Below are positions 181 through 15,392 of a stretch of DNA of 64,000 nt, one piece after another (position 1 is the stretch's first letter; each line of letters starts with the position of its first letter). The position numbers and the translations under genes were made by a program. The DNA lies in the NCBI RefSeq assembly GCF_004364175.1, contig NZ_SNZW01000011.1:310001-374000 (forward strand). Reading direction: 5' to 3'. The notes under the pieces were generated by a model. The model made no database searches. It was not told where the DNA came from and saw only the letters and a program-made list of their open reading frames with translations. This DNA comes from Maribacter caenipelagi. Lineage in GTDB: Bacteria; Bacteroidota; Bacteroidia; Flavobacteriales; Flavobacteriaceae.

Positions 181-255
181 AGCGACGATTTCTATAATTA
201 ATTATATTACCCTTTAAATATGGTATTTTCCGCCTAATATTTTATACATTTTGTT
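181..255. repeat. attC-like element A (right half)
   Basis: The sequence from about 200 to 255 resembles the right halves of the other palindromic elements: a run of the type TTTAAATAT..TTTTCCGCC followed by a terminal GTT at 253-255. A matching left half with a complementary stem was not found in bases 1-180, so the element is either decayed or spliced to other sequence. Bases 1-180 hold no gene I can support. They contain two small hairpins, AATCTAT/ATAGATT near 111-130 and ACGATT/AATCGT at 134-153. The GTT at 253 starts cassette 1. Confidence 0.5.
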
Positions 256-265
256 AGCATTATGC

Positions 266-2701
266 TTACGCTATAATTTGAATTGTTTGGTTCTCTTTTA
301 ATGATACCTCATAGGTTTCGCCATTACAATGAACAATTGTTTTGCCTCCATTTTTAGAGAAGATGGTAAGGTTTGTCACCTTTTTATTTTCCCAACTGAA
401 AGTCAATTCAAACCCTCCTCTGGCTTTAACCCCATGTAATTTTCCCTTTTGCCAAGTATCGGGAATAGCAGGAAGAAGATGAATACTTTTTTCTGTTGAT
501 TGTACTATCATTTCCATAACTCCTGCCGCTCCGCCAAAGTTTCCATCAATTTGAAATGGAGGATGTGCATCAAACAAATTGGGATAAGTTCCTCCAGCAT
601 TCGAGTTATTAGCTTCCAAACCTGTCGGGTCAACATAGTTCAGTAATTCTCTATACAATTTATAGGCTCTTTTGCCGTCTTTTAACCGTGCCCAAAGGTT
701 TATTCTCCAACCTTGTGACCAGCCTGTACTTTTGTCGCCTTTTATATTTAAAGTCTTTTTGGCGGCCTCGGCTAGTTCAGGGGTTCTTTCTGGTGAAATA
801 TGATGTCCTGGATATAGCCCAAATAAGTGCGACTGATGACGGTGTTGAGGATCGTCATCATCCCAATCATGATACCATTCTAACAAATGCCCACCTTTCT
901 TGCTTATTTGATAAGGATGAAGTTCATTAAGCCTTTCCTTTAATTCATTTTGAAAGGCAAGGTCAGTATCCAGAATTTCAGCTGCCCTAATGGTATTATT
1001 AAAAACCTCTCTGACAATTGCTAAATCAGATGTTGCCCCATATAATGTAGCACCACGATATCCAGTTGAAGTAACGTACATGTTTTCGGGAGAGGTCGAT
1101 GGAGAAGTAACCCAGTTCCCTTTTTTATCTTTCACCATCATATCAATACAAAACAAGGCGGCTCCTTTCATTAATGGATATGCTTTCTGTTTTAGAAAAT
1201 CTAAATTTTGATTGTATAAATAATGTTCCCATAAATGAGTGCTAAGCCATGCTCCGCCCATGTTCCAGTTTGCCCAAACAGGGTGGCCATTTCCAAAGTC
1301 ACCGACAGGATTACTCATTGCCCAGATATCAGAATTGTGACCTACGGTCCAACCTCGTGCACCATAAAAAGTGGGGGCTGTAATTTTTCCTGTCTCTTCC
1401 AAATTTTCTATCCAACTAAGCAAGGGAAAATGGCATTCACTTAAATTGGCTACTTCAGCGAGCCAATAATTCTCTTCTACGTTTATATTTGTTGTATAAT
1501 TACTACTCCAAGGTGGTCTAAGGTATGGGTTCCAAATGCCTTGTAAGTTGGCAGGTACACCAGGAGTCCGTGAGCTTGCAATCAATAAATATCGACCGAA
1601 ATGGAAGTACAGTTCTTCCAGCCCTTTATCTTGTTTTCCTTTACTATAACGAATCAATCGCTTATTCGTAGGTAAATTAAGTGTATCTATTTCTTGTAAT
1701 TGAAACGTAAGCCGATTAAACAAAGCATGGTGGTCATCAAGATGATCGCTTAATAATTGTTTATATGCTTTCTTTGAAGCATTATCTAATTGTCTTTGTG
1801 CAATTTCTTTGTACGGTTTCCCTTCTTTAACAGGATCTTTATCAAAACCATTAAAACTAGTAGCTACCGATACAAGAATCTGAGCAAATGAACCTTCTGA
1901 AAGTATTAGTTTAGATCCTTCAAAAGACACTTTCCCGTCCGTATTATTTATCTTGACATAATTTGAAAAATGGATGCCACGACAATCGTCAAAACGAACA
2001 GGGTTTTCAATGTTTGAGCTGTAATTTGGTTCACAACGATAAGGAGCATAGCCGTCTGTTTTTTGAATAGGCTCATTTACTGTAGTCGTAAACTTTAGAA
2101 GACTAGAAAAATCTGCTGTAAAGTTTAACTTACCTAAAGCATCACTTTTTAGGTTTATGACCATAACGTTATCAGGGTGCGAAATAAAATATTCCCGAAC
2201 ATAGTTTACTCCGTCAATTTGATAGGATACTTCAGAGGTGGCGTCACTTATGTTTAAAGATCTGCGATAATTTTCTGATTTATGTTCATCATGGTCATAT
2301 TCAAAAAATAGGGTGCCTAGCGGAGCAAAAGACTGAGAATAGGAACCTTGTATGTTCTTAATTAACTCATCTGCTTTTTGATATTCTTCATCTTCAAGTA
2401 CTTTTCGTACATCATCAATATATTCATGGGCATTGGGATTCATATTTGGATTCACAGGTTCACCAGACCAAAGTGTGGCATCATTGAGATAAATAGAGTC
2501 TACCTGTACCCCTCCAAATATGCTTGCACCCATTTTCCCGTTTCCAAGAACTAAAGATTCTTCAAAATGACTGGCAGGTTTTTCATACCAAAGGGTATAT
2601 TTTTTTTGCGCGCTAGCTTCTTGTTTATCAACCAAATCTTGGCAACTAAAGATGAACAAGGAGAGAACGCTTGCAAATAGAAATATCTTTTTATTAATCA
2701 T
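266..2701 (-). CDS. GH95 alpha-L-fucosidase-like lipoprotein
   Basis: This 811-residue protein is a glycoside hydrolase of family 95, whose members remove alpha-1,2-linked L-fucose (some remove L-galactose) by inversion. The N-terminus is a lipoprotein signal with the lipobox cysteine at residue 20, so it is probably anchored on the cell surface or in the periplasm. The family start LWYEKPA..LGNGKMGA is present. The N-x-N pair (TTNIN, about residue 404), the SPEN glutamate (about 538) and the QIDGNFG aspartate (about 717) match the catalytic residues known for bifidobacterial AfcA. Length is normal for the family. It ends 5 bases after a cassette core at 253-260, and its start lies near a weakly complementary end at 2719-2726, so it appears to be cassette 1. 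That is unusually large cargo. No SusC/SusD genes are beside it. Confidence 0.88.
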   Translation of the reverse strand: MINKKIFLFASVLSLFIFSCQDLVDKQEASAQKKYTLWYEKPASHFEESLVLGNGKMGASIFGGVQVDSIYLNDATLWSGEPVNPNMNPNAHEYIDDVRKVLEDEEYQKADELIKNIQGSYSQSFAPLGTLFFEYDHDEHKSENYRRSLNISDATSEVSYQIDGVNYVREYFISHPDNVMVINLKSDALGKLNFTADFSSLLKFTTTVNEPIQKTDGYAPYRCEPNYSSNIENPVRFDDCRGIHFSNYVKINNTDGKVSFEGSKLILSEGSFAQILVSVATSFNGFDKDPVKEGKPYKEIAQRQLDNASKKAYKQLLSDHLDDHHALFNRLTFQLQEIDTLNLPTNKRLIRYSKGKQDKGLEELYFHFGRYLLIASSRTPGVPANLQGIWNPYLRPPWSSNYTTNINVEENYWLAEVANLSECHFPLLSWIENLEETGKITAPTFYGARGWTVGHNSDIWAMSNPVGDFGNGHPVWANWNMGGAWLSTHLWEHYLYNQNLDFLKQKAYPLMKGAALFCIDMMVKDKKGNWVTSPSTSPENMYVTSTGYRGATLYGATSDLAIVREVFNNTIRAAEILDTDLAFQNELKERLNELHPYQISKKGGHLLEWYHDWDDDDPQHRHQSHLFGLYPGHHISPERTPELAEAAKKTLNIKGDKSTGWSQGWRINLWARLKDGKRAYKLYRELLNYVDPTGLEANNSNAGGTYPNLFDAHPPFQIDGNFGGAAGVMEMIVQSTEKSIHLLPAIPDTWQKGKLHGVKARGGFELTFSWENKKVTNLTIFSKNGGKTIVHCNGETYEVSLKENQTIQIIA

Positions 2702-2723
2702 TGGTCGTTTTAAAATTAATGCT

Positions 2724-2915
2724 GTCGGTCTCGTATATGAAACGTAGCGTGTAAAATAACCCTAACTTTTCGGATTAAACACGAGCCGAATTTTTTGAAT
2801 TTTACTTTTTATCTTTATTTATTTAAAAGCCAAATTTAAAAATTTGGCGGTCTTTGTTAATAAGCCCAAGCCTTTAAATTTAGTACTTCCCGCCCTATTT
2901 GCTATAAGTATTGTT
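2724..2915. repeat. attC-like element B (hybrid)
   Basis: A 192-base spacer element ends in GTT at 2913-2915. Its left part (GGTCTCGTATA..GTAGCG) resembles the left half of element E, while its right part (GCCAAATTTAAAAATTTGGCGG.. to CGCCCTATTTGCTATA) resembles the right half of element F. The left core reads GTC instead of AAC. The two halves pair poorly with each other, unlike in elements C, E, F and G, so it looks like a recombinant or decayed site. Confidence 0.6.
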
Positions 2916-2946
2916 AACCACAGTTATTTTTTAGTCAGATTAATGA

Positions 2947-3783
2947 TTATTTAGCTTTTAATGAGTCTAGCTTTTTTTCTAAATCCGTCTTTTTATCATT
3001 CCACCATTCCCAATTTGATTCTTTCTTCAGTTGTGCTTCTACAATCAACATTGCTTGGTTGAAATTACCTTGTTCCTCCAAGGCCAACATTTCATAAAAT
3101 GCAAAGGTTTCTAGTGCAGAATCTTCTTTTGCTATTTTTGCAAAATGTATAGATAATTTTTCCGCTTCTTTATATAGTTTTTGGTCTGTGAGTGAATCAA
3201 GTAAAATAAATAGAATTTCAGTATCAGTATGAAATTCATTCTTCATTTTACTATTAATAACGCTTTGATAGAAATTGATTGCCGCCTTAGAGCCTTTAGT
3301 TTTAACAATGGTTTGTAGTGTATCGTTTATTAGGTTTTTAGGTTCAGAAACTTTTTTCACTTTTAGTGGATTATAAACTAAAGTAGTACCTGGAGGCATT
3401 CCATTACCACCCTCTTTTCCGTAAGCAATGGAATCCGGTAAAATCGCAATTACTTCGTCCCCTTCTACTAAATAGTTATTGAGCTCTTCAAATCCTGAAA
3501 TCATTGAGGTCACGCCATGAATAAATCCAATAATCGAATCCTTTTCTGTTGACGTGGACCAAAAAATAGTATCAGATTCGTTTAGGTATAAATCCATTGA
3601 TTCTTCAACTCTTGAATTTGTTCTAATCTGTTTGCCATTACCTTCTTTTAAAAAAATATATTTCAATCCGCTAGCTGTAGTTATGGTGTCGCCCAAAACT
3701 ATATTTCCTCTTTCTTTTTTTACTTGTTGATTGCAAGAATAAAATGAAGTCGAAATGATTAATAGAAGTAAATAGTTTTTCAT
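2947..3783 (-). CDS. FKBP-type peptidyl-prolyl isomerase lipoprotein
   Basis: A 278-residue lipoprotein (cysteine 17) with an FKBP-like domain from about residue 30 to 145. ASGLKYIFLKEGNG, GFEELNNYLVEGDE, PDSIAYGKEGG and MPPGTTLVYNPLKV are the usual FKBP blocks. The family isomerises X-Pro bonds and often acts as a chaperone. Residues 150-275 are helical, with a TPR-like look (repeated alanine- and leucine-rich helices), and may bind other proteins. The gene is the cargo of cassette 2: the left end GTTAACCACAGTTAT (2913) and the reverse complement of the right end (3782-3796) agree at 13 of 15 bases. The right arm runs into the start codon. Confidence 0.8.
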   Translation of the reverse strand: MKNYLLLLIISTSFYSCNQQVKKERGNIVLGDTITTASGLKYIFLKEGNGKQIRTNSRVEESMDLYLNESDTIFWSTSTEKDSIIGFIHGVTSMISGFEELNNYLVEGDEVIAILPDSIAYGKEGGNGMPPGTTLVYNPLKVKKVSEPKNLINDTLQTIVKTKGSKAAINFYQSVINSKMKNEFHTDTEILFILLDSLTDQKLYKEAEKLSIHFAKIAKEDSALETFAFYEMLALEEQGNFNQAMLIVEAQLKKESNWEWWNDKKTDLEKKLDSLKAK

Positions 3784-3793
3784 AATTGTGGGT

Positions 3794-3878
3794 AACAGCT
3801 TCTGCTATGAGTAGTTGCTTGGTTTAGCACTTAACTTTTCAAAGTAGGCGAGAACAAGCAATTACTATAGCCATTGTC
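3794..3878. repeat. attC-like element C
   Basis: This is the shortest element, 85 bases. After AAC, the left arm GCTATGAGTAGTTGCTTG pairs with CAAGCAATTACTATAGC on the right, with a two-base bulge and one mismatch. The loop between is about 30 bases. The right core reads GTC rather than GTT. Length and imperfect pairing with extrahelical bases are those expected of an integron attC site. Confidence 0.72.
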
Positions 3879-3887
3879 GTGCTTTCG

Positions 3888-4652
3888 TTATTTAATTTCT
3901 GTTTGTAATAATTCTAAAATTGAATTCAGTTCTTTCATAAGTGGATCATAGTGTGATGTTTCTGTTGCTTTACTGGTCAAATAAAACATTAAAATATTAT
4001 TTTCAAATTCCAGTGATTCTAATAAATTCAAATTACTTACACTACTTTTTGTCTGGTGAAAATTTATTTCTGAATTGGGATTTGTTTGCTCAAAAATAGT
4101 TTTAATACTGTTTTTGTTTGTTCTAAACATATCAAGCACTTTTACTCTTTGATTGCCGAGTTCTTCCTCTTGTCTCGCTATATCTTCTAAAGTCGATTTC
4201 CAATTTGTTAACCTTATTCTAAGTTTACTATTTGTAATATCTTTTAAACTACCAGAATTAATAATCTCATTTAATAGCGAATTATTAGCGTTAAATGAAA
4301 TATCTGAAGAAAACGAACGGAATAATAATTCTGAGAATTGTTTTTCATTTAATGAAATATTTGGATTTGAAATGTTTTCCATTATCGTTTTAGCACCCAA
4401 ATAGTTCTGTTTATTAACCTCAAGTAGCTCATTTAGTTTTAGCTTACTCGTTTTAAATTCTTCCTGCAATCCTTTGAGGTATGTTTGTTCTTTTTTTAAT
4501 AAATTTTTATTCTGTTGACCATTGTTTATAGCAACGGCAATTAAAATGCCAACTACAACAAGTATTATTTCTCCTAGTGCATATATTAGGTATTTGCCGA
4601 ATTTGTTTTCAGTTAGCATTTTTTGTCTAATTTTTCTAAAGAAATTTATCAT
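3888..4652 (-). CDS. DUF6090 family membrane protein
   Basis: A 254-residue protein resembling the DUF6090 family, common in Flavobacteriia and without known function. It starts with a short basic region (MINFFRKIRQKMLTENKFGKY) followed by one membrane segment at about 22-44 (YALGEIILVVVGILIAVAIN). The rest is helical, charged and probably periplasmic, with coiled-coil character around 45-90. It is the cargo of cassette 3, with core bases GTCGTGCTT on the left and GTTATGCTT (reverse complement) on the right. Confidence 0.75.
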   Translation of the reverse strand: MINFFRKIRQKMLTENKFGKYLIYALGEIILVVVGILIAVAINNGQQNKNLLKKEQTYLKGLQEEFKTSKLKLNELLEVNKQNYLGAKTIMENISNPNISLNEKQFSELLFRSFSSDISFNANNSLLNEIINSGSLKDITNSKLRIRLTNWKSTLEDIARQEEELGNQRVKVLDMFRTNKNSIKTIFEQTNPNSEINFHQTKSSVSNLNLLESLEFENNILMFYLTSKATETSHYDPLMKELNSILELLQTEIK

Positions 4653-4680
4653 TGGTTAGCGGTTTCTGATAATGAAGCAT

Positions 4681-4884
4681 AACGTCAAAGCTAAGCGTAG
4701 TGCGGAGGCAAGGAAACTTTTCGTTTCCGTCTGCCAACGAAGCTAAAGCTTATTGTTTAGTTTTATTTTTTCTTGTCCAAAGCTAAATCCATAAGATTTA
4801 GCGACTATATAAACCTGCCTGCCGGCAGGCAGGTATACACAGACCTTTCGGTTTTGCCTTAAAGTTCGCATTACGTTTAGGTTT
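4681..4884. repeat. attC-like element D, interrupted by IS110
   Basis: A long element of the G/H/I type: AAC at 4681, CTAAGCGTAGTGCGG arm, GGAAAC/GTTTCC hairpin, GCTAAATC/GATTTAGC hairpin, and the returning arm CGCATTACGTTTAGG at 4868-4882. In elements G and I that arm is followed within a few bases by the terminal GTT. Here an IS110-family element begins instead, and the terminal GTT resumes at 6089, after the insertion. The 20-base perfect palindrome CCTGCCTGCCGGCAGGCAGG (4814-4833) lies inside it, which makes this element longer than its relatives. Confidence 0.72.
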
Positions 4885-4924
4885 CCTAAGTTAGTAATCT
4901 GTTATCTTTTATAGTTTAACAAAA

Positions 4925-5010
4925 GAACAAAAGAGCAGAGTAAGGTTATTTTAGGTTTAGAAACTTCAGATTCCGTCAACAAAGAAAATCCCTGCTCTTT
5001 TACTATTCAA
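4925..5010 (+). ncRNA. possible IS110 bridge RNA region
   Basis: The 200 bases upstream of the transposase are non-coding. AAAAGAGCAG at 4929-4938 is an exact reverse complement of CTGCTCTTTT at 4992-5001 and would close a stem over a 53-base loop. IS110-group elements are known to encode a structured bridge RNA in the non-coding region upstream of the transposase. This stem is the only part seen directly; the RNA itself is inferred. Confidence 0.4.
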
Positions 5011-5093
5011 ATACGATCAGTTCATTAGGTCATAAGAACCTGTTTCTAGGATGATGTATAGTATTAGTGTTTGTTCTTTAAAAATTTAATGAT

Positions 5094-6059
5094 ATGAATA
5101 AAAGTACAATTTTTGTGGGTATAGACATCTCGAAAGATGTTTTCGATGTATATGATTCCAAGAGAGGCCATATCCAATACTGTAATGATGAAAATGGTTT
5201 CAAGTTGTTCCGAAAGAGCATAACCGCCGATCATTGGTGCGTAATGGAAGCTACGGGATGCTATCACCACCAACTTGCCATTGACCTTTTCAATAACGGT
5301 TTACGTGTTTCGATGATAAACCCCTTGATCATCAAGCGTTTTATACAGATGAAACTGAATCAGGTAAAAACGGATAAGAGCGATGCCAAGATGATCTGTC
5401 GCTATGGTGAAGAACAGGCAATGGAGCTATGGTCGCCAGAGCCTGATTATATTGTGGAGAGCAAGACCCTTCAAGGAGTCGTGCGCCTTTATTTCAAGCA
5501 ACGTACGGCTTTGAAAAATACGCTTCACGCCATGTCCACGAGTAAACGTGGCAAGGGCAAGCTAATGCGTTCCATTGTCCGTCAGTTGAGGATCCTGGAC
5601 AAAGAGATCGGTTTGCTAGAGGCAGAGATCGAAAAATTGATACGTGCGAACGAACAGGAGCTTTATACAAGATTGAACACTATACCGAGTGTTGGTAGAA
5701 AGACCGCTATGCTCTTGATCGTTTCCACGAACGGTTTTCGGGATTTTGAAAGTTCACGGCAGTTGTCCTCCTATTTCGGTCTTGCCCCGAACGAGCGAAG
5801 TTCGGGCAGTAGTATCCGAGGAAAGTCCCGAATAAGTAAAACCGGAGATTCTCTAGTGAGGAACCATCTTTTTCTGTGCAGTTTTACAGCATGTATCCAT
5901 AACCCTCAATGCAAGGCATTATATGATAGAATAGTCTTAAAAGGTAAAAGCAAAAAATTGGCTTTGATCGCAGTCTGTAATAAACTTATTAAACAAGCTT
6001 ACGGAATAGCTAAATCAGGTTTGGATTACGATAGAAATCATGTAGGTAGATTGAGCTAA
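5094..6059 (+). CDS. IS110-family DEDD transposase/recombinase
   Basis: A 321-residue transposase of the IS110 family. The N-terminal RuvC-like domain carries the DEDD set: D11 in GIDISKD, E52 in MEATG, and D94 and D97 in KTDKSDAK. A coiled region at about 165-190 leads to the C-terminal Transposase_20 domain (TIPSVGRKTA.., SSYFGLAPNE.., SSGSSIRGKSRISKTG), which contains the serine-rich catalytic segment at 236-240. The gene is full length with no frameshift, so the element may still be active. It is on the plus strand, opposite to the surrounding cassette genes. The N-terminal sequence starts at a single clear ATG. Confidence 0.93.
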   Translation: MNKSTIFVGIDISKDVFDVYDSKRGHIQYCNDENGFKLFRKSITADHWCVMEATGCYHHQLAIDLFNNGLRVSMINPLIIKRFIQMKLNQVKTDKSDAKMICRYGEEQAMELWSPEPDYIVESKTLQGVVRLYFKQRTALKNTLHAMSTSKRGKGKLMRSIVRQLRILDKEIGLLEAEIEKLIRANEQELYTRLNTIPSVGRKTAMLLIVSTNGFRDFESSRQLSSYFGLAPNERSSGSSIRGKSRISKTGDSLVRNHLFLCSFTACIHNPQCKALYDRIVLKGKSKKLALIAVCNKLIKQAYGIAKSGLDYDRNHVGRLS

Positions 6060-6143
6060 ATATTATTTGTTTTTCAGCTCAGTTCTTTGTTAGCATTTGT
6101 TTTTTTCGTCTGAGTATGCCGTATCCGCTAAGTTTTGGTCTAT

Positions 6144-6572
6144 TTATTTAGCATTGTTGAAACCCAGTTTTTTGACTTCGCTTATTTGAATAGTAGGCTG
6201 AATATTAGTGTAGTTTTTAAAGTCTCCGATTATTGCATCTATATTTGGTCCTATTGCTTTGTTATACTCAGCAACATTTTTTACATAAAAATAACCGATA
6301 GCCAAATAAGGCACTTTATCATTCGGGGTTCGACCTGCTATGCCCTTATCAATTTCATAAAATTTTAAATTTTCGCCCAAAAATTCTGCCACCATAGGCA
6401 TATGTTTGTTTGCATAATAATCCATGTCAAAAGTTTTTCCTTCATCGTTCGGATATAGAATTGCCACTTTAAACATTTCATTTCCTAGTGTTGAAGAATG
6501 CATCAGTTTATTGGTTTTGCAACTTAACAAGGCTATAAGAGCAAAGGTTAATAAGAAGAATTTGATTTTCAT
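6144..6572 (-). CDS. EthD-like lipoprotein
   Basis: A 142-residue exported lipoprotein (cysteine 18). After the signal it has one EthD-like dimeric alpha/beta-barrel domain (KVAILYPNDEGKTFDMDYYANKHMP at about 35-60, then AIGYFYV). EthD relatives occur in ether degradation and in many small oxygenase-like proteins; the substrate here is unknown. It lies in cassette 4, whose left core at 6089 (GTTAGCATT) matches the reverse complement of its right end at 6863-6871 at 8 of 9 bases. The gene is preceded by a decayed reading frame in the same cassette. Confidence 0.75.
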   Translation of the reverse strand: MKIKFFLLTFALIALLSCKTNKLMHSSTLGNEMFKVAILYPNDEGKTFDMDYYANKHMPMVAEFLGENLKFYEIDKGIAGRTPNDKVPYLAIGYFYVKNVAEYNKAIGPNIDAIIGDFKNYTNIQPTIQISEVKKLGFNNAK

Positions 6573-6662
6573 TTATTTTTGGTTTATATAATTGTTATTT
6601 GCTCAATTTTCTTCCATCTCCATAAGATTGAAAAAGTCTGAAATTTTGTTTTTCTAAAATAC

Positions 6663-6865
6663 CTAAAAAAATTGACCGCCGTTCGGTCTATTTAACATTC
6701 CTACAGAGTTAGAAATCACTCCGCGTTTCCATTGCGAAAGAGTGACAAGTTCCGCGTACAGTTTTTCAAATCCGTCAGAGTATGAATTCCGTCCGAAATT
6801 TCGTCAAATTCTAAACATTCCATCTGCGGAATTTTGAACTCCTGGGGAATATTTTTACAATTAAT
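6663..6865 (-). pseudogene. decayed small ORF in cassette 4
   Basis: On the minus strand, directly after the cassette core, an open frame runs from ATT AAT TGT (6865) through NIPQEFKIPQMECLEFDEI and then HTLTDLK, where it stops making sense. A frame offset by one base continues as LYAELVTLSQWKRGVISNS and ends at 6663. The two pieces join into one plausible protein of about 67 residues with a single frameshift and a start codon changed from ATG to ATT. I do not recognise the family. The 290 bases upstream of the EthD-like gene hold nothing else. Confidence 0.4.
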
Positions 6866-8712: not shown

Positions 8713-8728
8713 TGATTTTAATTTATTT

Positions 8729-8772: not shown

Positions 8773-8854
8773 AAAAAATAATTTATTTGGAAAGCTACCC
8801 ACCCTTCTTTTATTAAAATTGATTTTCAGAACGTTGTTTTTTTAGATGACGCAC

Positions 8855-9046
8855 AACGGTTCGGCTATGGCAAGTAGGGCAGGCAAGGAAACTTTTCGTT
8901 TCCGTCTGGTCTGCTAGCCAGAGCTTTTTGTTTTGTAATTATTTTTTACTTTTCAATTGCCAAATCCAAAAGATTTGGCGGACTTAGTAAACAAGCTCAA
9001 GCCATTAAATATAGCACTTTTCGCCCTATTTGCTATAGCCATTGTT
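8855..9046. repeat. attC-like element F
   Basis: A 192-base imperfect palindrome from AAC to GTT. The left arm GGTTCGGCTATGGCAAGTAGGGC pairs with the right arm GCCCTATTTGCTATAGCC, leaving five unpaired left-side bases near the core. Two internal hairpins are clear: GGAAAC/GTTTCC near 8896-8913 and GCCAAATC/GATTTGGC near 8959-8980. The gap between abiEi and the next gene holds only this element and the abiE promoter. Confidence 0.78.
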
Positions 9047-9058
9047 AGCAAATGTTTT

Positions 9059-9487
9059 TTATTCATATCGCCAATAAGCTACTCCGCCATGATGGGAACA
9101 TGCTCCACGCCCAGTTGCCTTAGAAATAGTTCCGTCGTTACAAACAGCTCCAACCCTTACCTTGTAATTCTCCTTTTTAGTCTCAAATTCTTCATAATTT
9201 ATTCTTTCAATACTTTCTTCCGAAAACCGTTCATAAGACTGTTTTTTGGGTTTGTGATTTTCAGAATTTGAACTATTTAATTCTAATGTATTGAGGTAAT
9301 TTTCTTGGGAAACTTTATTGATATTTTGTTCAATGTTAATATTCTTTTTTACATGACCTTTTGAATCATTATCGTCATTCACGTAAAGTATAAAAAGTCC
9401 AATTCCTAGAAGGATACTTAAATTAGGTCTTTTCCTAATGAAAATAAGTAGTAAAATCCCTAAAATTATTCTAGCAATCCAAACCAT
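9059..9487 (-). CDS. DUF3761-like membrane-anchored protein
   Basis: A 142-residue protein with two short hydrophobic segments at the N-terminus (about 3-17 and 23-36), a charged low-complexity linker, and a C-terminal domain VGAVCNDGTISKATGRGACSHHGG that matches the DUF3761 pattern (C..DGT.S....G.CSHHGG). The conserved cysteines and histidines suggest metal binding or a disulfide, but the role is unknown. It follows the gene at 9526 by 38 bases and shares cassette 6 with it, so the two are probably one transcript. Confidence 0.6.
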   Translation of the reverse strand: MVWIARIILGILLLIFIRKRPNLSILLGIGLFILYVNDDNDSKGHVKKNINIEQNINKVSQENYLNTLELNSSNSENHKPKKQSYERFSEESIERINYEEFETKKENYKVRVGAVCNDGTISKATGRGACSHHGGVAYWRYE

Positions 9488-9525
9488 TATTCTTAGACTT
9501 TTTCAATTCTTCGATGCGCGGTAAT

Positions 9526-9996
9526 TTAAAAGTAATCGCCATCTTTTACTTCTATTCCAAGTTCTTTAAATAGATGCAAAAATGCTTTTTTATATTTCTC
9601 TATTAGTTCTTTGCTGCAATTTAAGGAAATATCAAATCCATACATTTTTGTTTCGGATGGCTCTCCTTCGATGTCTGAATTTTCATTTAAATAATACTTT
9701 TTTACGATAGTACCGCCTTTTTTAAAATTTAGCTTAACGGAATTCCAACCATCTTGTCCATATTTCAAGCTTATGGAGTTTACATCGACTGGATTTATTT
9801 CATTTACAAAAGTAGCTTGGCTGTTACCAGCTTGACGCACGGAAAAAAAATATAGTATGTTTTGGTTTTTGTCGTACTCAATCTGTTCTCTTCCACTTGA
9901 ATTTCTGCCTATCCATTCAATCGTTTCTTCTAAGGATTGAGAAAAACTAACGTTTAGAAATAATAAGAAAACTACTATAATTTTGAAATTGGTCAT
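9526..9996 (-). CDS. exported protein of unknown function
   Basis: A 156-residue protein with a signal peptide (about 1-19, ending VSFSQ) and no cysteine at the cleavage point. The mature part is a small mixed alpha/beta domain with many aromatic residues (LYFFSVRQ, WNSVKLNFKKGG) and a C-terminal helix. I do not recognise the family. It is the first gene of cassette 6; its start codon lies 15 bases from the cassette end ATTTGCTAAC at 10,012-10,021, as is usual for the first gene of an integron cassette. Confidence 0.6.
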   Translation of the reverse strand: MTNFKIIVVFLLFLNVSFSQSLEETIEWIGRNSSGREQIEYDKNQNILYFFSVRQAGNSQATFVNEINPVDVNSISLKYGQDGWNSVKLNFKKGGTIVKKYYLNENSDIEGEPSETKMYGFDISLNCSKELIEKYKKAFLHLFKELGIEVKDGDYF

Positions 9997-10018
9997 TTTG
10001 TTTTTTTAAATATTTGCT

Positions 10019-10206
10019 AACGTTTCGGCTAAGCGAAGTGCGGTAGTAAGGAAACTTTTCGTTTCCGTCTGCGCACGAAGCAAAAGCTTTTTGTTTTGGT
10101 TTATTTTTTCTTGTTCAAAGCAAAATCCTAAAGATTTTGCGACTTCATAAAAATACACAAAGCATTCGTTCTAGCCCAAAAGTCCGCATTACGTTTAGGT
10201 TTTGTT
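10019..10206. repeat. attC-like element G
   Basis: A 188-base element. Left arm CTAAGCGAAGTGCGG pairs with right arm CCGCATTACGTTTAG, with an unpaired spacer between the stem and the AAC/GTT cores, as in attC R and L boxes. Internal hairpins GGAAAC/GTTTCC and CAAAATC/GATTTTG are present. Nearly the same sequence recurs as elements D, H and I. Confidence 0.78.
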
Positions 10207-10323
10207 ACCAACTGTTTTTTTTTGTCCGAGTTAGCCTTCTCCTTATAGTTTTTCAACTACTCCCCTGTAAGAAGACCAACTACTCAGCAGTTGCGCCTGA
10301 GTAAAAAGTCCATTGTGCGATTT

Positions 10324-10929
10324 TCAATATTTCAACTGGTTCTTCTTGTATTTTCGGATAAGTTTTTCAGCCCCTTTTAGCATAATCATATGGGAACTAG
10401 GATTAATTGTCGGTATTTGATTATCATCAGGGAAAATTGACTCTTGATTTTCTGTTTTTCCATAGACTTGAGAAGATGAGATAAGAGTTTCTGTATTTAG
10501 GTCGTATATTGATATTGAAACAGATGCCCTATTACTTGAATTATCGTTTTGATTGGGAAAAGACAATGTTCCTGCGCCATCACTAATAACGTTTCCGCCT
10601 ATATTTATTAGGTAATCACAGTCGGTATCTCTTTTTAATTCTTTTAAATCTGAATCGGTTAAGTCAAATTTAATTTTTGGTGCCACCAATTTTGTACTTC
10701 TTAAGTCGTTCATTTCTATTAAAGAATCTCCTAGAATTTTTTTGAACTCTTTTAGTGAATTGTCATAAAGCTCGGTATCAAATATTCTTGAATTCGATTT
10801 GGTACTATTTAAAATCCATTTTCCATCACTAAAGTCCAATTGTTTTCCAGCATCGAAAAAGTAATTGTATTTCGCCCCTCCGCACGAATAAAGGGCAGAA
10901 ATAATCAATATTGAGAATAATTTTTTCAT
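10324..10929 (-). CDS. lipoprotein of unknown function
   Basis: A 201-residue lipoprotein with its cysteine at residue 16 (ALYSC). The mature part has a region that may form a small alpha/beta domain (KIKFDLTDSDLKELKRDTDCDYLINIGGNV) followed by strands (ASVSISIYDLNTETLISSSQVYG). I do not recognise the family. It is the only gene of cassette 7. The 110 bases between the cassette core at 10,204 and the stop codon hold no other gene. The cassette ends (10,204-10,213 and 10,953-10,962) are exact reverse complements. Confidence 0.6.
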   Translation of the reverse strand: MKKLFSILIISALYSCGGAKYNYFFDAGKQLDFSDGKWILNSTKSNSRIFDTELYDNSLKEFKKILGDSLIEMNDLRSTKLVAPKIKFDLTDSDLKELKRDTDCDYLINIGGNVISDGAGTLSFPNQNDNSSNRASVSISIYDLNTETLISSSQVYGKTENQESIFPDDNQIPTINPSSHMIMLKGAEKLIRKYKKNQLKY

Positions 10930-10959: not shown

Positions 10960-11301
10960 AACGTACGGATATGTGCACAATTATACATATCCGCATATAT
11001 TGATGTATATGTGTAGTTATTTATTTGATACACTTACTAATATACTACTAAAGAATAAACCTACAATCAACTGGGTACATTCCGTAGCGTGAAACCTTAA
11101 TGATAAATTATATGCAATGGAAATGATTAAAAACAACAAACCAACCATTCAGTCTGTTTTTTACTGGTAAATGGAGTGGAGAATTTAAGAAGCCAACGAC
11201 GGCATTTGCTATTATATCGATAAAATGCGAAGCGAACAAAGTTAAATGGTTGTCTTAGACATTAAACAAACCAACTGGTTTGTTTTTTGGTTGGGAAAAG
11301 T
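10960..11301. repeat. decayed second copy of the array leader
   Basis: From the AAC at 10,960 this non-coding stretch aligns with the leader at 15,013-15,392: the hairpin GGATATGT/ACATATCC, CATATATTGATGTATATGTGTA, AAAGAATAAACCTACAAT, and GCGAAGCGAACAAAGTT occur in the same order. A perfect palindrome AACAAACCAACTGGTTTGTT (11,265-11,284) stands where the other copy has AAACCAAGTGGTTT. No gene is present. It adjoins cassette 7 just as the other copy adjoins cassette 10, so it acts or acted as the head of a second array. Confidence 0.75.
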
Positions 11302-11361
11302 AGCTGTTTTAGAACAAATTTGCTGTTTAGACGGACTCCTATGGTTCAATAACCACTGTTT
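11302..11361 (-). pseudogene. fragment of ogt 3' end
   Basis: On the minus strand this encodes KQWLLNH, a changed SPSKQQ and then a one-base deletion relative to the last codons of the intact ogt at 15,393. It is joined to the second copy of the leader in the same order as in the intact locus, so leader and gene end were duplicated together. It is far too short to be functional and runs directly into an IS110 fragment. Confidence 0.72.
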
Positions 11362-11433
11362 GCAGTGCAGTTTTATAATCCTCAATGCAAAGCATTAGAT
11401 GATTTCATAGTTTTAAAAAGGAACAAACATGCA
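11362..11433 (+). mobile_element. IS110 transposase fragment
   Basis: Plus-strand codons read FYNPQCKALDDFIVLKRNK, which aligns with IHNPQCKALYDRIVLKGKS (residues 268-286) of the intact IS110 transposase at 5,094-6,059. Everything upstream of that has been replaced by the ogt fragment, and the reading frame is lost about where the next gene ends. A matching right end of the same IS lies at 12,121-12,140, beyond that gene. Confidence 0.72.
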
Positions 11434-12021
11434 TTAGTCTTTAGCGAGGGTTTTAAAGCCTTCCATCACATAGATTAACTTACGTTTATCTTCGAATCCC
11501 GGATATTCTTCATCTGTGAACATTGATGGTAAAAAACTCTTATATTCTGTATAATTTTCGCCTTGGTATACACCGAAAGTATAGGTTTGTCCACCACTTA
11601 TGGCATTTTTCCATGAGTTCGCTTTTTCTCCTAAGGTCGCTAATTGACTTTGATTTATACTGAATTTTCCTTCGCTAGCACAGAGATTCAAAAATGCCCA
11701 ATACGCTGAATACTTTTTTTTCTTAACACGTATCCTCTTTATTTTAGGGGAAGCCATTGGTTGGGCGGACTCCTTAATTCTGTAGCGCCTTACCTTACCA
11801 TTATTAAGGTAAACGATATAATCTGATTCTGGTTCTATATGTGGCAGTATAGAGTAGGCGAGGCGAACCACCAATGCGTCTGCATCATTCAAGCCAAATA
11901 ACTCAGTATACCTGTTTACTTCTTCTGAATTCGATTTAAAGTCGATTTCTGGTATTTCAGATGCTTGCGAAAAGGCTAGAATGGGCAAAAGAATAAAAAG
12001 ATAGTATAGAAGTTTTCTCAT
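11434..12021 (-). CDS. exported protein of unknown function
   Basis: A 195-residue protein with a signal peptide (MRKLLYYLFILLPILAFSQ). The mature part begins with an acidic helix, has a strongly basic patch (SPKIKRIRVKKKKYSAYWAF) and a glycine-rich segment (ISGGQTYTFGVYQGENY). I do not recognise the family. It sits between two pieces of a decayed IS110 element and has no clear cassette ends of its own: GGTTACGAACG near 12,042 is the nearest AAC-containing sequence upstream. It was probably carried in with the rearrangement that joined the two arrays. Confidence 0.6.
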   Translation of the reverse strand: MRKLLYYLFILLPILAFSQASEIPEIDFKSNSEEVNRYTELFGLNDADALVVRLAYSILPHIEPESDYIVYLNNGKVRRYRIKESAQPMASPKIKRIRVKKKKYSAYWAFLNLCASEGKFSINQSQLATLGEKANSWKNAISGGQTYTFGVYQGENYTEYKSFLPSMFTDEEYPGFEDKRKLIYVMEGFKTLAKD

Positions 12022-12120
12022 TGTAAAGTTATAAAACTCGGTTACGAACGTATTCTGTTTATTGATTTTAGAATCTATTAGCTTAGAATAGTAATGTCAC
12101 GGTTTAAGAATGAATTTGGT

Positions 12121-12140
12121 TGTTTTTCAGCTTAGTTCTT
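12121..12140 (+). mobile_element. right-end remnant of an IS110 relative
   Basis: These 20 bases match 6068-6087, the last bases of the intact IS110 element, at 19 positions. As there, they are followed at once by a cassette core (TTTGGCAACA, expected GTTGGCAACA). A relative of the IS had therefore inserted at the same position of another attC-like element and has since decayed. Confidence 0.65.
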
Positions 12141-12154
12141 TTTTGGCAACAGTC

Positions 12155-12826
12155 TTAATCTGTTTTCAAAGTTTTATTTGGATTCGGTTCAAATACAGCC
12201 TTGTCTATATTCTTTTCCACTATAGAAGTAACTTCTTCAATTGACTTAAAAAGCGGGTAAAATTCTGTTTCGTTTCGAATACTTATCGCATTTGATTCCT
12301 TCACAAATAGATTCCAAAAACCATCTGTATATTCGGAATAGCGTTTCGCATTTAATTTATATTTGGGGTTGAAATAGTATTTCCCTCGCATTTCTGTAAA
12401 AAATGATATAGAATCTTTAGGCTTGTATTGTAATGTTATCGATTCACATTTTTCTCCTAATATGATTTTTTTATCATTTTGATTGCGTTCAAACTTAATT
12501 AAATCATTTTTTTCAGTTCCGAATTTACTTTTGGTTATTGTGTCCAATTTTTCAAATTCCGTATAAGAATAACCTTCGTCTAGGCGGACAATTATTTTCA
12601 TCCAGCCTTGTTGTCCTTTTCCATGGTATATCATTGCATACCTGTCTTCCTTTACATATGCAGTAAATGATGTTCCGAATTCTCGTTCTAGCATGGAAGT
12701 TGGTAAATTCTCATTATTTGATTGATATTCTATTTTATAATTTAATTCTCCTTCAAAAAAATCTTGTGCATTTAATGAAAAGGCGTAAAATATAATTAGT
12801 ACAACTGAGATTTTGATTTTATTCAT
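12155..12826 (-). CDS. exported protein, possibly DUF4412/GLPGLI-like
   Basis: A 223-residue protein with a signal peptide (about 1-20, FSLNAQ). The mature start FFEGELNYKIEYQS, followed by an alternation of strands and the motif ILGEKCESITLQYKP, resembles periplasmic beta-rich proteins of the DUF4412/GLPGLI type, where a conserved G..C follows the middle strand. The role of those families is unknown. It is cassette 8: TTGGCAACA at 12,143-12,151 and TGTTGCCAA at 12,838-12,846 are exact reverse complements. Confidence 0.55.
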   Translation of the reverse strand: MNKIKISVVLIIFYAFSLNAQDFFEGELNYKIEYQSNNENLPTSMLEREFGTSFTAYVKEDRYAMIYHGKGQQGWMKIIVRLDEGYSYTEFEKLDTITKSKFGTEKNDLIKFERNQNDKKIILGEKCESITLQYKPKDSISFFTEMRGKYYFNPKYKLNAKRYSEYTDGFWNLFVKESNAISIRNETEFYPLFKSIEEVTSIVEKNIDKAVFEPNPNKTLKTD

Positions 12827-12844
12827 GTTTTTTTGATTGTTGCC

Positions 12845-13029
12845 AACACATTACCTAAGCGTAGTGCGGTGGCAAGGAAACTTTTCGTTTCCGTCTGCGC
12901 ACGAAGCTAAAGCTTTTGGTTTCGCTTTTCTTTTTTTTGTCCAAAGCTAAATCCATAAGATTTAGCGACACCATAAATATACACAGACCATTCGTTTTAA
13001 GCCTAAAGTCTGCATTTATAGGCTTTGTT
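12845..13029. repeat. attC-like element H
   Basis: A 185-base relative of elements G and I with the same AAC..CTAAGCGTAGTGCGG start, GGAAAC/GTTTCC hairpin, GCTAAATC/GATTTAGC hairpin and terminal GTT at 13,027. The returning arm is shortened and altered (CTGCATTTATAGG) compared with CCGCATTACGTTTAGG in G, so the stem is weaker. The bases between its end and the gene at 13,123 are AT-rich and show no other feature. Confidence 0.7.
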
Positions 13030-13122
13030 GGTAAATCGTTTTTATGATAAAATTTAATTAATTAAACTTCGTTATTTCTTTATTAACTTGGATATAATCA
13101 AAATAAAAAAAGTAATAGTTGT

Positions 13123-14160
13123 ATGAAAGCTATCAATAAAAGTATTATAGTTATTATTTCTCTATTTTTCATTTCTTGTGCAACCGAGGATAACGATATT
13201 GAAGTTGCTAAAGAAAATCCCACAGTAGAGTCTGTTGATATATTAGATTTAGTTAAATGGCAAAAAATAGCAGATACACCTGTTACAAATTTTCAGGCCC
13301 ATATCGTTCATGAAAACAAGTTATTTTCATTGAGTATTAAAGATACCTATGTTTTTGATTTCGAATTAGTTCAATGGACATTATTAGCGACGGATTCAGA
13401 TAATGTTTTTCCAGACTATGGATTAGGAGGTCTTAAGGTTAATTTTATTCGAAATGAAAAATGGAATATGTTTACAGAAAAAGGGTTGTATGAATTTGAT
13501 TTTCAATTGAATAAATGGTCGGTTGTGAAAGAATTCCCTCAAGTAAATGGGTTGTTTTCAATTTCAGGTTTTTATGTCGAAGAAGATATGGCAATCTACT
13601 TTTTGGATAAATCAAATGGGAATGATACTATCTATAAATATGATTTATTTACAAATGAATTACTATCCCATAGTAATTATATTAATACGGGCGATAGAGG
13701 AGAAACATATAATGGTTCTTTGAAAGTAGAAAACTCAAACTATTATATTACACCTGGTTCAGGTACGGGGAGAAGTAATGAAATTTTAATATCTAAATTC
13801 AATGAAGATTTTACTACTTTAGTTCCTGTTGGAAATTTTGTTACAGAAAACGATATGGCAAATAGTGTCGCTGTACAGTATGGGAATTACATAATTTTTG
13901 GTCTGGGAGGTACTGCAACATTAGATGGTTCTACGGGAATAATTACAGACATAAGACCTACTTTGAAATTCTATGCTTACGACACTGTAAATGATGTTTT
14001 CACCGAAATGTCTTCTCCATTTTATGAAAGTTGTTGGGCTGCTAATGTAATAGTACACAACAATGAGTATTACTTAATAAATGGGCATACAATTAAAAAT
14101 CAAAAAGTAGAACTTAGAACCAAAATAGAAAAGATAGAATTTGATTTTATAACACAGTAA
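13123..14160 (+). CDS. lipoprotein with Kelch-like propeller repeats
   Basis: A 345-residue lipoprotein (cysteine 19, FFISC). The mature part has repeated four-stranded units of the kind WQKIADTP..AHIVHENKLFSLS, TYVFDFELVQWTLLA, LYEFDFQLNKWSVVKEFP and IYKYDLFTNEL, which suggests a Kelch or galactose-oxidase-like beta-propeller. No catalytic site is evident; a binding role at the cell surface is likely. It is the only cargo gene on the plus strand, in cassette 9, whose ends (13,027 and 14,205-14,213) agree at 8 of 9 bases. It must therefore use its own promoter or be silent from the leader. Confidence 0.65.
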   Translation: MKAINKSIIVIISLFFISCATEDNDIEVAKENPTVESVDILDLVKWQKIADTPVTNFQAHIVHENKLFSLSIKDTYVFDFELVQWTLLATDSDNVFPDYGLGGLKVNFIRNEKWNMFTEKGLYEFDFQLNKWSVVKEFPQVNGLFSISGFYVEEDMAIYFLDKSNGNDTIYKYDLFTNELLSHSNYINTGDRGETYNGSLKVENSNYYITPGSGTGRSNEILISKFNEDFTTLVPVGNFVTENDMANSVAVQYGNYIIFGLGGTATLDGSTGIITDIRPTLKFYAYDTVNDVFTEMSSPFYESCWAANVIVHNNEYYLINGHTIKNQKVELRTKIEKIEFDFITQ

Positions 14161-14210
14161 TGGTGCTTAGGTTTTAAATCTTCGGTAATATTGTTCCTAA
14201 AATGTTTGCC

Positions 14211-14397
14211 AACGTTGCGGCTAAGCGTAGTGCGGAGGCAAGGAAACTTTTCGTTTCCGTCTGCGCACGAAGCTAAAGCTTTTGGTTTAGTTTTTATTTT
14301 TCTTGTCCAAAGCTAAATCCCAAAGATTTAGCGACATCATAATATACACAGACCATTCGATTTAGCTCTAATGTCCGCATTACGTTTAGGTATTGTT
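14211..14397. repeat. attC-like element I
   Basis: A 187-base element almost identical in layout to G: AAC, CTAAGCGTAGTGCGG arm, GGAAAC/GTTTCC and GCTAAATC/GATTTAGC hairpins, returning arm CCGCATTACGTTTAG, and GTT at 14,395-14,397. The stop codon of the next gene lies inside its right end, which is common for integron cassette genes. Confidence 0.78.
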
Positions 14398-14991
14398 GTA
14401 GTGCGTTTTTTTCCGAGCTGTGTCATTCAAATTGTTTTCGTTAATTAGGTAGAATATTGGAATTATTGCTAAGCTTTGCCAAGCAACAAACATTGTTACT
14501 CTTGTTGGAATATTGTAATCAAAAAACAATTTATTATTTATCATTTCAATTAAGATACTACTTAGTACACCGGCTATAAATATCATTAAAAGTGATATCT
14601 TCAATTTATCAACTTTGTAAATGTATTTAATCATCAAGCTCAACCCTATCGATGCGACGGCTGAACTTAAGACTACGAACAATGTTTTATTTGTAAATTC
14701 TGGCAAATCAAAAAGCCAAATTAGCCAGATTGAGAAAAGTCCAACAAGAAATGAGGCTACAAAAAAAGTGATGGAAACTATTATGGCTGAGTATAATAAT
14801 TGTCTAAGCTTAATTTTGTAGTTAGTTAAAAATATTGAAATTGTAAATATTATTAAAAAACCCAATCCACTTATAAAGCCTTTGTCATTCTTTGTAAACT
14901 CATTGGTTACTACGCATAAGATAGTCCAAATAGCTGTCAGAATTAAATAAGTATAAATCCCAATGAATGTCGTTCTGTCAATTTTTTGCAT
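14386..14991 (-). CDS. multi-pass membrane protein of unknown function
   Basis: Starting at the ATG at 14,991 this is a 201-residue protein with about six membrane segments (ILTAIWTILCVV, FLIIFTISIFLT, IVSITFFVASFLVGLFSIWLIWLF, FVVLSSAVASIGLSLMI, LLMIFIAGVLSSILI, MFVAWQSLAIIPIFYLI). An upstream in-frame ATG at 15,039 is rejected because it lies outside the cassette. The chosen start is 15 bases from the cassette end GCACTACAAC (15,006-15,015). I do not recognise the family. It is cassette 10, the one next to the leader, and so probably the best expressed. Confidence 0.6.
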   Translation of the reverse strand: MQKIDRTTFIGIYTYLILTAIWTILCVVTNEFTKNDKGFISGLGFLIIFTISIFLTNYKIKLRQLLYSAIIVSITFFVASFLVGLFSIWLIWLFDLPEFTNKTLFVVLSSAVASIGLSLMIKYIYKVDKLKISLLMIFIAGVLSSILIEMINNKLFFDYNIPTRVTMFVAWQSLAIIPIFYLINENNLNDTARKKTHYNNT

Positions 14992-15012
14992 ATTTTTTCT
15001 CAAATGCACTAC

Positions 15013-15392
15013 AACGTACTGATATGTGTAATTGCACACATATCCGCATATATTGATGTATATGTGTAATTATTTATTTGATGCACTTACTAATATACCA
15101 TTAAAGAATAAACCTACAATTAACATCTCACATTCCATTACGGGAAACCATAATTGCTATAAATTCTATAGAACTAATGTGTCATTAGTAGCACTCAGAA
15201 GAGAATTGCATTAAAAATACCGAACCGACCACCTAGTCGGTTTTTGAGTGGTAAAATGAGTTCTGAATTGTTAGAATGAACGATAGCAATGGCAATTGTA
15301 TCGACAAAATACGAAGCGAACAAAGTTCAATGGGTGTTTTAGACATTAAAAAAACCAAGTGGTTTGTTTTTTGATCGGTTAAAGCAGCTGTT
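15013..15392. promoter_or_regulatory. leader / attI-like region next to ogt
   Basis: This 380-base non-coding stretch separates ogt from cassette 10. It starts with AACGTAC and a hairpin GATATGTG..CACATATC (about 15,020-15,044), followed by CATATATTGATGTATATG. It carries two operator-like palindromes: AACCGAC/GTCGGTT (15,223-15,242) and AAACCAAGTGGTTT (15,352-15,365), the latter a typical TetR-box shape. A second, decayed copy lies at 10,960. By position it is where an integron would have attI and the cassette promoter; no TTG-TAnnTTTG promoter towards the array could be identified by eye. Confidence 0.5.

Follow-up and report, generated by a model that had tools for sequence, protein, structure and literature searches.

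Layout of the array

The window, a 64,000-nucleotide stretch of a Maribacter caenipelagi contig, contains between positions 253 and 15015 a cassette array of ten gene-bearing segments, nine of which read in the same direction. This is the arrangement that a sequence-only reading of the same DNA had proposed. Its features are given below; genes are on the minus strand unless stated, domain assignments are from Pfam, and R2 is a covariance model described later.

253–2726, minus: cassette 1, from a GTT end to a GTC end, defined by end matching; gene 266–2701, glycoside hydrolase family 95 domains
2724–2915, plus: spacer or recombination site S12, 192 nt, decayed (GTC for AAC), missed by R2
2913–3796, minus: cassette 2; gene 2947–3783, FKBP_C domain
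3794–3878, plus: site S23, 85 nt, supported by its fold and R2 (31.6 bits)
3876–4683, minus: cassette 3; gene 3888–4652, DUF6090
4681–6091, plus: site S34, its 3' core apparently interrupted by an IS110-family element
5094–6059, plus: IS110-family transposase
6089–6871, minus: cassette 4; gene 6144–6572, weak EthD match
6869–6991, plus: site S45, 123 nt, R2 90.4 bits (E 1.3e-16)
6989–8857, minus: cassette 5, defined by end matching; genes 7004–7990 (AbiEii nucleotidyltransferase) and 7987–8712 (DUF6088/AbiEi-like)
8855–9046, plus: site S56, 192 nt, R2 44.9 bits and fold
9044–10021, minus: cassette 6, defined by end matching; genes 9059–9487 (DUF3761, below cut-off) and 9526–9996 (no Pfam match)
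10019–10206, plus: site S67, 188 nt, R2 34.9 bits
10204–10962, minus: cassette 7; gene 10324–10929, no Pfam match
10960–12142: rearranged junction with a copy of the flank, IS110 remnants and a gene at 11434–12021
12142–12847, minus: cassette 8, first core base decayed (TTT); gene 12155–12826
12845–13029, plus: spacer S89, 185 nt, diverged, missed by R2
13027–14213, plus: cassette 9; gene 13123–14160 on the plus strand, the sole reversed gene
14211–14397, plus: site S910, 187 nt, R2 35.9 bits
14395–15015, minus: cassette 10; gene listed as 14386–15039, GTG start
15013–15446: array end and right chromosomal flank, kept in many genomes of the genus

For S12, the folded strand was taken as plus. 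The earlier description was right about the cassettes but had overlooked the IS110-family element, which apparently lies in the spacer before cassette 4. Its right end abuts the GTT at 6089, and its extent near S34 was inferred by eye. At the rearranged junction, 10960–11361 is a 78%-identical copy of the right flank at 15013–15446 (437 alignment columns), accompanied by two short IS110 remnants.

Cassette ends match across the gene and begin at G|TT

The two ends of each cassette had been claimed to pair only with each other. The seven bases following GTT at one end of a cassette were compared with the reverse-complemented opposite end of the same cassette, using the boundaries listed above except that the start of cassette 8 was set at 12143. 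The mean match was 5.7 of 7 for cognate ends and 2.26 of 7 for non-cognate ends, and none of 100,000 permutations reached the observed value; the test is conservative because the register used for cassette 8 was off by one base (its TTT begins at 12142). A core base has decayed in cassette 1 (GTC replaces AAC at the right end) and in cassette 3 (GTC replaces GTT at the left end). The same relationship holds at related loci, where 152 of 175 cassettes match at six or more of the seven cognate-end bases, compared with 3.0% of non-cognate pairs.

We then examined 34 pairs of near-identical segments in related loci. GTT was found in both copies at 20 starts and 14 ends, against an expectation of about 2% per boundary, which agrees with the proposed G|TT boundaries and with a mobile unit consisting of a gene plus its site. 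In 11 of the 34 pairs neither edge lay at GTT, which counts against the cassette reading; eight of these 11 exceed 1.2 kb, the size of an insertion sequence, and are not annotated. The canonical core, GTTRRRY/RYYYAAC, was not followed by the 75 well-matched cassette ends: position 4 was G or A in 74, and position 5 was T in 35 and C in 14.

A family of predicted hairpin sites

The arms of the window spacers are complementary, and by sequence they belong to a family of predicted hairpin recombination sites. Each site consists of AAC, an unpaired spacer of 5–6 by 3 nucleotides and a stem of 16 bp in which pairs 7 and 12 are G.T wobbles, followed by a variable tip; its length is near 124 or 189 nt. 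The palindrome is imperfect and the central unpaired spacer asymmetric, as in canonical integrons. R2, in whose making no window sequence was used, finds five of the window spacers (S23, S45, S56, S67 and S910) and did not recover S12 or S89 in its scan of the window. Minimum-energy DNA folds had been suggested for all nine spacers; S23, S34 and S56 do close end to end, but the other stretches do not, S910 being nearly closed and S45 having been folded as a shortened slice. The two spacers missed by R2 and the small number of complete folds both weigh against the cassette reading.

The expectation that the sites are more foldable than shuffled sequence was confirmed on 145 sites, whose median stability z relative to mononucleotide shuffles is −4.4, with 92% below −2. 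In 135 of these sites the site strand folds more stably than the complementary strand, in nine less so, and the stems of the 145 contain 347 G.T against 9 A.C pairs. Covariation is evident in 146 double-change cells, against 37.4 in shuffled data. The possibility that the sites wholly lack extrahelical bases was rejected. In a count that took in stems with zero or one bulge, 142 of 208 sites downstream of integrases fit a bulge-free stem, and a second subset of 66 carries a single bulge, T in 62. By comparison, canonical attC stems have two or three extrahelical bases, with a conserved G, according to PMC2727003.

A first covariance model of joined hairpin arms (R1) had too short a window and missed most long sites, and was replaced by a script finder together with R2. 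With loose spacer sizes, the finder could not be separated from one of two control cores. It was sharpened by limiting the spacers to the enriched classes of 5–6 and 3 nt, although a CAA/TTG control and a control with swapped spacers still gave up to 10 matches in single loci. The percentage of paired positions is partly a product of the method: the finder accepted stems with no fewer than 14 of 16 pairs, and the loci on which it was run had also been used to choose its spacer sizes. R2 searches of the window, of other genomes and of named loci, and the cognate-end test, are independent of this tuning. Rfam gave no match over curated cut-offs for the two loci searched (L017 and L070).

An integrase and a second array on another contig

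The statement that there is no integrase in sight holds for the window and for the flanking stretch L018, where the genome's listed recombinase loci include no integrase; it fails for the genome as a whole. A 383-residue tyrosine recombinase is encoded on contig C2 at 6171–7322, in the order integrase (7322–6171), attI-like site and second array, with eight sites of the same family adjoining it. The recombinase sought was one with the IntI-specific insertion. That insertion is absent from 39 of 39 Bacteroidota integrases, whose motif spacing is 64–67 residues compared with 87–107 in 13 IntI proteins (two IntI rows lacked the motif); the Bacteroidota integrase has 31 residues where IntI4 has 74. 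The surmise that the recombinase might be unusual is supported. The C2 protein scores 206 bits against TIGR02249 (cut-off 265) and is below the Xer equivalog level for both XerD (199.5 bits, cut-off 329.6) and XerC (187.5 bits, cut-off 335.15). Its catalytic half is closest to XerA/Xer by sequence and fold (PDB 5hxy, 4a8e); it differs from these recombinases in having an extra N-terminal domain and in its linkage to cassette arrays. XerD- and XerC-like proteins are encoded by separate genes in the same genome. In a phage collection, 14 records matched, none of them spanning 80% of the integrase.

Related loci and evidence of movement

At 20 chosen related loci and C2, the common layout is an integrase, an attI-like site and a one-strand array. 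On the strand opposite the integrase, 208 sites lie downstream and six upstream of it; the corresponding numbers for the other strand are 23 and five. In 63 of 84 cassettes the longest open reading frame points the same way as the integrase, and in five it points the opposite way. Identical gene-plus-site units recur within arrays and, in three loci, also at attI: a 475-bp unit at four places in L056, a 570-bp unit at four places in L058 and a 426-bp unit at two places in L074, each with one copy at attI. In all three, copies of an internal cassette begin directly at the post-integrase site.

A sequence 99% identical to window cassette 7 is present in G211, a different species of the same genus; the hairpin expected after the gene is missing there, which counts against the cassette reading. 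One way for that reading to fail would have been for the spacers to be scattered at single genes; they form same-strand arrays behind the integrase, but isolated matches to single spacers also occur outside arrays in genomes of the genus. Sites were found in 177 of 199 genomes of the window's family, in at least 122 of the 125 family genomes with an integrase match, and in 0 of 12 genomes of other phyla. Many genomes with no integrase match at E ≤ 1e-40 nonetheless carry sites, which, like the solitary sites, counts against the cassette reading. Two copies with sites are plasmid-borne.

Interpretation and alternatives

As judged from sequence, the array layout, its one-strand polarity and a site structure with covariation are established, as are the G|TT edges of repeated units, their copies at attI and within arrays, and near-identical cassettes in different species. 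We conclude that these loci represent a widespread integron-like class of Bacteroidota. The window would then hold an integrase-less array of this system, and we consider it very probable that it does, with the functional platform on C2. With five R2 sites and no adjoining integrase, the window has the CALIN arrangement (a cluster of at least two attC sites lacking an integrase), differing in that its sites form a new family rather than canonical attC.

Chromosomal integrons (IntI, attI and attC; for example VchIntIA with VCR sites) share with the Bacteroidota system a tyrosine recombinase, an adjacent attI, a one-way array, a gene plus palindromic site as the unit, G|TT edges, G after AAC, an asymmetric unpaired spacer, a variable tip, and a non-coding strand that is the better folder. 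The Bacteroidota integrase differs in lacking the IntI-specific insertion, in its extra N-terminal domain and in being transcribed towards the array; the sites differ in their fixed G.T wobbles, stepped lengths, absence of RRRY after GTT, and at most one extrahelical base, as a rule T. We do not file the system as a canonical integron because of its integrase, which has no IntI-specific insertion and an extra N-terminal domain, and because its sites do not have the extrahelical pair.

In the cycle that we propose, the non-coding strand of a spacer would extrude as a hairpin and serve, folded, as the substrate. The two ends of the cassette would form its outer stem (some 14 bp, position 11 being a wobble). 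Together with the inner stem (G.T at 7 and 12) and the unpaired spacer of 5–6 by 3 nucleotides, this outer stem would provide two recombinase-binding boxes. The C2-type tyrosine recombinase presumably cuts at G|TT, so that a gene and its downstream hairpin may be excised as a circle, which could be inserted at attI beside the integrase gene or at another hairpin. The wobbles may choose the strand, and the N-terminal domain may also have a role.

Being palindromes that recur in the genome and at times stand alone, the spacers could in principle be selfish or regulatory elements, terminator-like or REP-like, lying between genes in the absence of any cassette system. Such elements would not be expected to have cognate ends across the gene in so many cassettes, a fixed strand relative to the integrase, or repeated gene-plus-site units with G|TT edges, and we find this the least credible of the explanations. 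Scarcely better is the proposal that housekeeping XerC/XerD move the cassettes, or that flanking inverted repeats invert segments, the C2 integrase being unrelated. Xer-like proteins are indeed present and cassette 9 is reversed, but genes of this integrase family are immediately followed by the arrays at 20 loci and on C2, and at three loci a cassette copy occupies the neighbouring attI. Inversion, already raised as an alternative in the sequence-only reading, is also unlikely in its own right, as frequent inversion would scramble the direction of open reading frames.

Descent is less clear-cut. It is possible, at somewhat short of even chances, that the system is a diverged canonical lineage whose integrase descends from IntI, having lost the insertion and gained the N-terminal domain. 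The AU test does not reject a tree that unites the Bacteroidota integrase with IntI (p 0.074), the two kinds of site have in common G after AAC, the asymmetric unpaired spacer and the variable tip, and one extrahelical base is present in 66 of 208 sites. Canonical sites, too, mostly have G after AAC according to PMC2727003, and the insertion is described in PMC8138268 as not fully conserved in an integron-like subgroup. On the other side, a quick tree gives a supported IntI clade that leaves out the Bacteroidota proteins, the TIGR02249 score falls short of its cut-off, and the insertion is missing throughout. The integron-like class itself does not appear in the literature matches listed, in a search with preprints and most subscription journals outside its coverage; the IntegronFinder 2.0 paper (PMC9024848) records a single complete integron from Bacteroidetes proper, that of Salinibacter ruber.

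Integrons are noted for their part in the spread of antibiotic resistance. If the Bacteroidota system is functional, detection based on canonical IntI and attC has missed gene exchange on a large scale in a major marine group. The system would also serve as a natural experiment on the requirements of integron recombination: it lacks most extrahelical bases as well as the insertion that has been called essential, and therefore strand choice must be solved differently. How a tyrosine recombinase came to use folded single strands would become testable by comparison. We tentatively suggest, with rather less than even confidence, that integrons arose twice: a XerA-like recombinase of Bacteroidota may independently have taken up folded single-strand cassette recombination, with the strand marked by G.T pairs (stem pairs 7 and 12, end position 11) in place of an extrahelical pair and with the N-terminal domain, akin to HARP/XPB binding of branched or damaged DNA, as reader, and may since have reached a large part of the family as well as plasmids.

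The idea that this N-terminal domain is HARP has weak support: the Pfam HARP match reaches E 7.8e-4 in one of 20 members, and the best PDB sequence match, 4o66, is weak (E 0.017). The integrase has no helicase attached, in which it differs from the HARP domain of SMARCAL1 and the archaeal XPB N-terminal domain, to which the likeness is weak. In structural comparisons 4o66 scores Z 4.3 and rows 1–7 are all XPB, with Z 6.3–6.7; like the sequence matches, these scores stay below clear significance.

The integrase lies on another contig

The array of ten cassettes at window positions 253–15015 is the integrase-less kind of a Bacteroidota integron-like system. The sequence-only reading saw no integrase, which holds for the window but not for the genome (4.28 Mb in 20 contigs, the window being G000:C1:310001–374000). 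Contig C2 carries:

C2:6171–7322, minus strand: tyrosine recombinase, 383 aa
C2:1–6130: second array, after the integrase; its eight sites belong to the window's site family

C2:1903–2109 is 85% identical to window 10018–10223. The catalytic half of the integrase scores 234 bits against NF040815 (XerA-type; cut-off 220) and 206 bits, below the cut-off of 265, against TIGR02249 (integron integrase). A stretch of 74 residues in IntI4 (2a3v) corresponds to 31 here. Two conserved motifs lie 64–67 aa apart in 39 family members vs 87–107 in 13 IntI proteins, after exclusion of two further IntI sequences and both Xer sequences, from which the motif is absent; the IntI-specific insertion, proposed earlier as a search criterion, is thus absent. 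An extra N-terminal region spans ∼110 residues. The integrase's nearest named relatives, from uncultured Maribacter (76%) and Psychroflexus gondwanensis (69%), point to Flavobacteriaceae, in the phylum Bacteroidota, as the family of the genome.

In a quick tree IntI forms a supported clade with the Bacteroidota proteins outside it; a tree joining the two was not rejected (p 0.074), and these proteins may have arisen separately from IntI or share its descent. The full integrase model (pLDDT 84, pTM 0.57) best matches XerA and IntI4. The isolated N-terminal domain (pLDDT 86, pTM 0.71) is closest to archaeal XPB N-terminal domains (Z 6.3–6.7), with a weak match to the SMARCAL1 HARP domain (Z 4.3; sequence E 0.017). 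Because Z under 8 may reflect just a common arrangement, a role on branched or mismatched DNA is put forward as a suggestion.

Cassettes and spacers of the window

The layout matches its first description, with minus-strand genes in nine of the ten cassettes, and the pairing of each cassette's ends with its own partner was confirmed: cognate ends agree at 5.7 of 7 bases beyond GTT, vs 2.26 for non-cognate ends, a value reached in 0 of 100 000 permutations. Other details had to be revised. An IS110-family element (transposase at 5094–6059) apparently occupies the spacer preceding cassette 4, the junction at 10960–12140 holds a second copy of the right flank, at 78% identity, together with IS110 scraps, and two cores are decayed. 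Among nine spacer stretches, only three close end to end at minimum energy, but R2, a covariance model built from 45 sites (43 from other genomes, two from C2), recognizes five of the window's spacers.

The cargo comprises a GH95 enzyme, an FKBP-type protein, DUF6090, an EthD-like protein, AbiEii with DUF6088, a DUF3761-like protein and unknowns. One cassette holds a possible toxin–antitoxin or phage-defence pair:

Window 6989–8857: cassette 5, AbiEii nucleotidyltransferase and DUF6088/AbiEi-like partner

A common site grammar

Sites read 5′-AAC, five or six unpaired bases, 16 pairs, a variable tip, three unpaired bases and GTT. Among 145 plain sites, the 5′ unpaired stretch begins with G in 138 and the 3′ triplet ends in T in 142; stem pair 7 is G.T in 118 of them, stem pair 12 in 135, with G always on the 5′ arm. 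All their pairs together include 347 G.T vs 9 A.C, an excess that selection for the folding of one strand would predict. Of the 66 sites with a bulge, 62 have T as the bulged base, and 62 have G.T at pair 12. The outer stem forms only when the two ends of one cassette meet; 152 cassettes have well-matched ends, and 135 of these show a G.T wobble at end position 11. Lengths of 203 sites are stepped: 164 measure 115–130 nt, 29 measure 183–194 nt, one falls between and nine elsewhere. In the sites of C2 and the 20 related integrase loci (L017, L055–L074), the two steps lie ∼66 nt apart, near 124 and near 189 nt. Across 45 sites, 94.3% of cells are paired, with 146 double changes vs 37.4 when shuffled. 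Because the finder accepts only sites with at least 14 of 16 pairs, the percentage paired is partly built in; this does not apply to where the wobbles fall, to site length, to strand or to end matching.

Distribution among relatives

The integrase matched 125 of 199 genomes of the family (E ≤ 1e-40), some of which, where the catalytic part alone is covered, may be other recombinases. R2 sites were present in 177 of the 199 (at most 17 candidates scored per genome) but absent from all 12 genomes traced from loci in other phyla, one of which (G614) has a true IntI (L154, 404 bits). Of the 22 siteless family genomes 20 were listed by name; since 19 of these lack an integrase match and one (G062) is a partial match, sites occur in no fewer than 122 of the 125 genomes that match the integrase. 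Sites are also present in many genomes lacking an integrase match.

In all 20 related loci, fetched from the best-assembled genomes over a range of integrase identities, sites lie downstream of the integrase, on the opposite strand. With C2 included, the final finder counted 208 sites downstream (142 plain, 66 one-bulge) and 6 upstream on that strand, and 23 and 5 on the other, the count reaching in most loci about 14 kb downstream vs 5 kb upstream. Among the 12 most promising-looking of 80 named loci, R2 gave hits at E ≤ 0.1 in 11, including Algibacter onchidii, Lutibacter, Seonamhaeicola aphaedonensis, Winogradskyella ursingii, Algoriphagus ornithinivorans and Zunongwangia mangrovi, and found nothing in L083; all 49 hits are downstream of the integrase, 48 of them in the expected orientation. 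Many of the remaining named loci lack sites, often because the contig stops close to the integrase. As a query by itself, the N-terminal region hit 73 of 395 genomes in the phylum, and G278, G327, G356, G506, G264 and others encode proteins of ∼490–590 aa with two or three tandem matches to it. Eight plasmid records cover at least 80% of the integrase; in the two examined, four (Chryseobacterium) and two (Persicobacter) sites lie downstream on the expected strand. The Chryseobacterium array also contains genes for an IS110 transposase and for the reverse transcriptase of a group II intron (L255:12269–16051), both oriented antisense to those of the cassettes.

Gene orientation was scored in 84 cassettes 250–1500 nt long: the longest ORF (≥ 60 aa) follows the integrase direction in 63 and the opposite in 5, with none in 16. 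The start is a median of 27 nt in from G|TT, the stop a median of 16 nt short of the other end.

Signs of cassette movement

Units recur within single related loci: 475 bp at four positions in L056 (99.8–100% identity), 570 bp at four in L058 (94–100%) and 426 bp at two in L074 (96%). Each has one copy directly after the integrase's attI, with flanks diverging past G|TT. By eye, two types of attI are visible within 120 nt past the integrase stop in L055–L074, one per integrase group: a near-perfect palindrome followed by CAATT|GTT or similar, and ATATAAC(C/T)AG|TT. For 34 repeat pairs of ≥ 93% identity downstream of integrases, GTT stands in both copies at 20 starts, 14 ends and 11 of both, where chance would give about 2% at each boundary; 11 pairs have neither edge at GTT, 8 of them over 1.2 kb.

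Copies also occur between species. Of 36 genomes searched within the genus, G211 carries a copy of window cassette 7 (L185:7994–8756; 754/763 identical, 99%) next to an attI-like palindrome; that stretch has no integrase ORF nearby. The hairpin expected after its gene is absent there, reflecting either later loss or a deviation from a simple unit of gene plus site. Other such copies are shared by L188 and L189 (755 bp, 98%) and by L058 and L115 (694 bp, 96%).

At three places in this genome (window 4681–6105, window 12120–12145 and L017:60–95), IS110-family ends lie directly against a site's GTT core, as if the element targeted such sites; known IS110 relatives target canonical attC.

Sites stand at contig ends in the same genome (C13:775–1679, C4:106–293, C6:855–2041 and C2:1–6130; L202–L204 and L017), so the assembly probably broke inside arrays and the real cassette number exceeds that seen.

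Comparison with canonical integrons

Taken together, the sequence patterns make it very probable that the Bacteroidota system works like an integron. We do not class it as a canonical one because defining features, when tested, did not hold: canonical IntI/attC systems have the insertion and extrahelical bases, whereas here the insertion and most such bases are absent. In passages of PMC2727003, canonical attC has two or three extrahelical bases; without them IntI1 and VchIntIA fail to recombine attC × attC, but attC × attI drops only ∼sixfold. One such base is touched by the IntI-specific helix, as a section of PMC3053210 describes, and part of PMC8138268 terms the insertion essential to integron function, its conservation being incomplete in an integron-like subgroup. 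That the insertion and most of these bases are missing together here is consistent with their pairing in canonical integrons. Bacteroidota are named among integron phyla in a portion of PMC8618304, and the IntegronFinder 2.0 survey, in the part concerned (PMC9024848), gives Bacteroidetes proper one complete integron.
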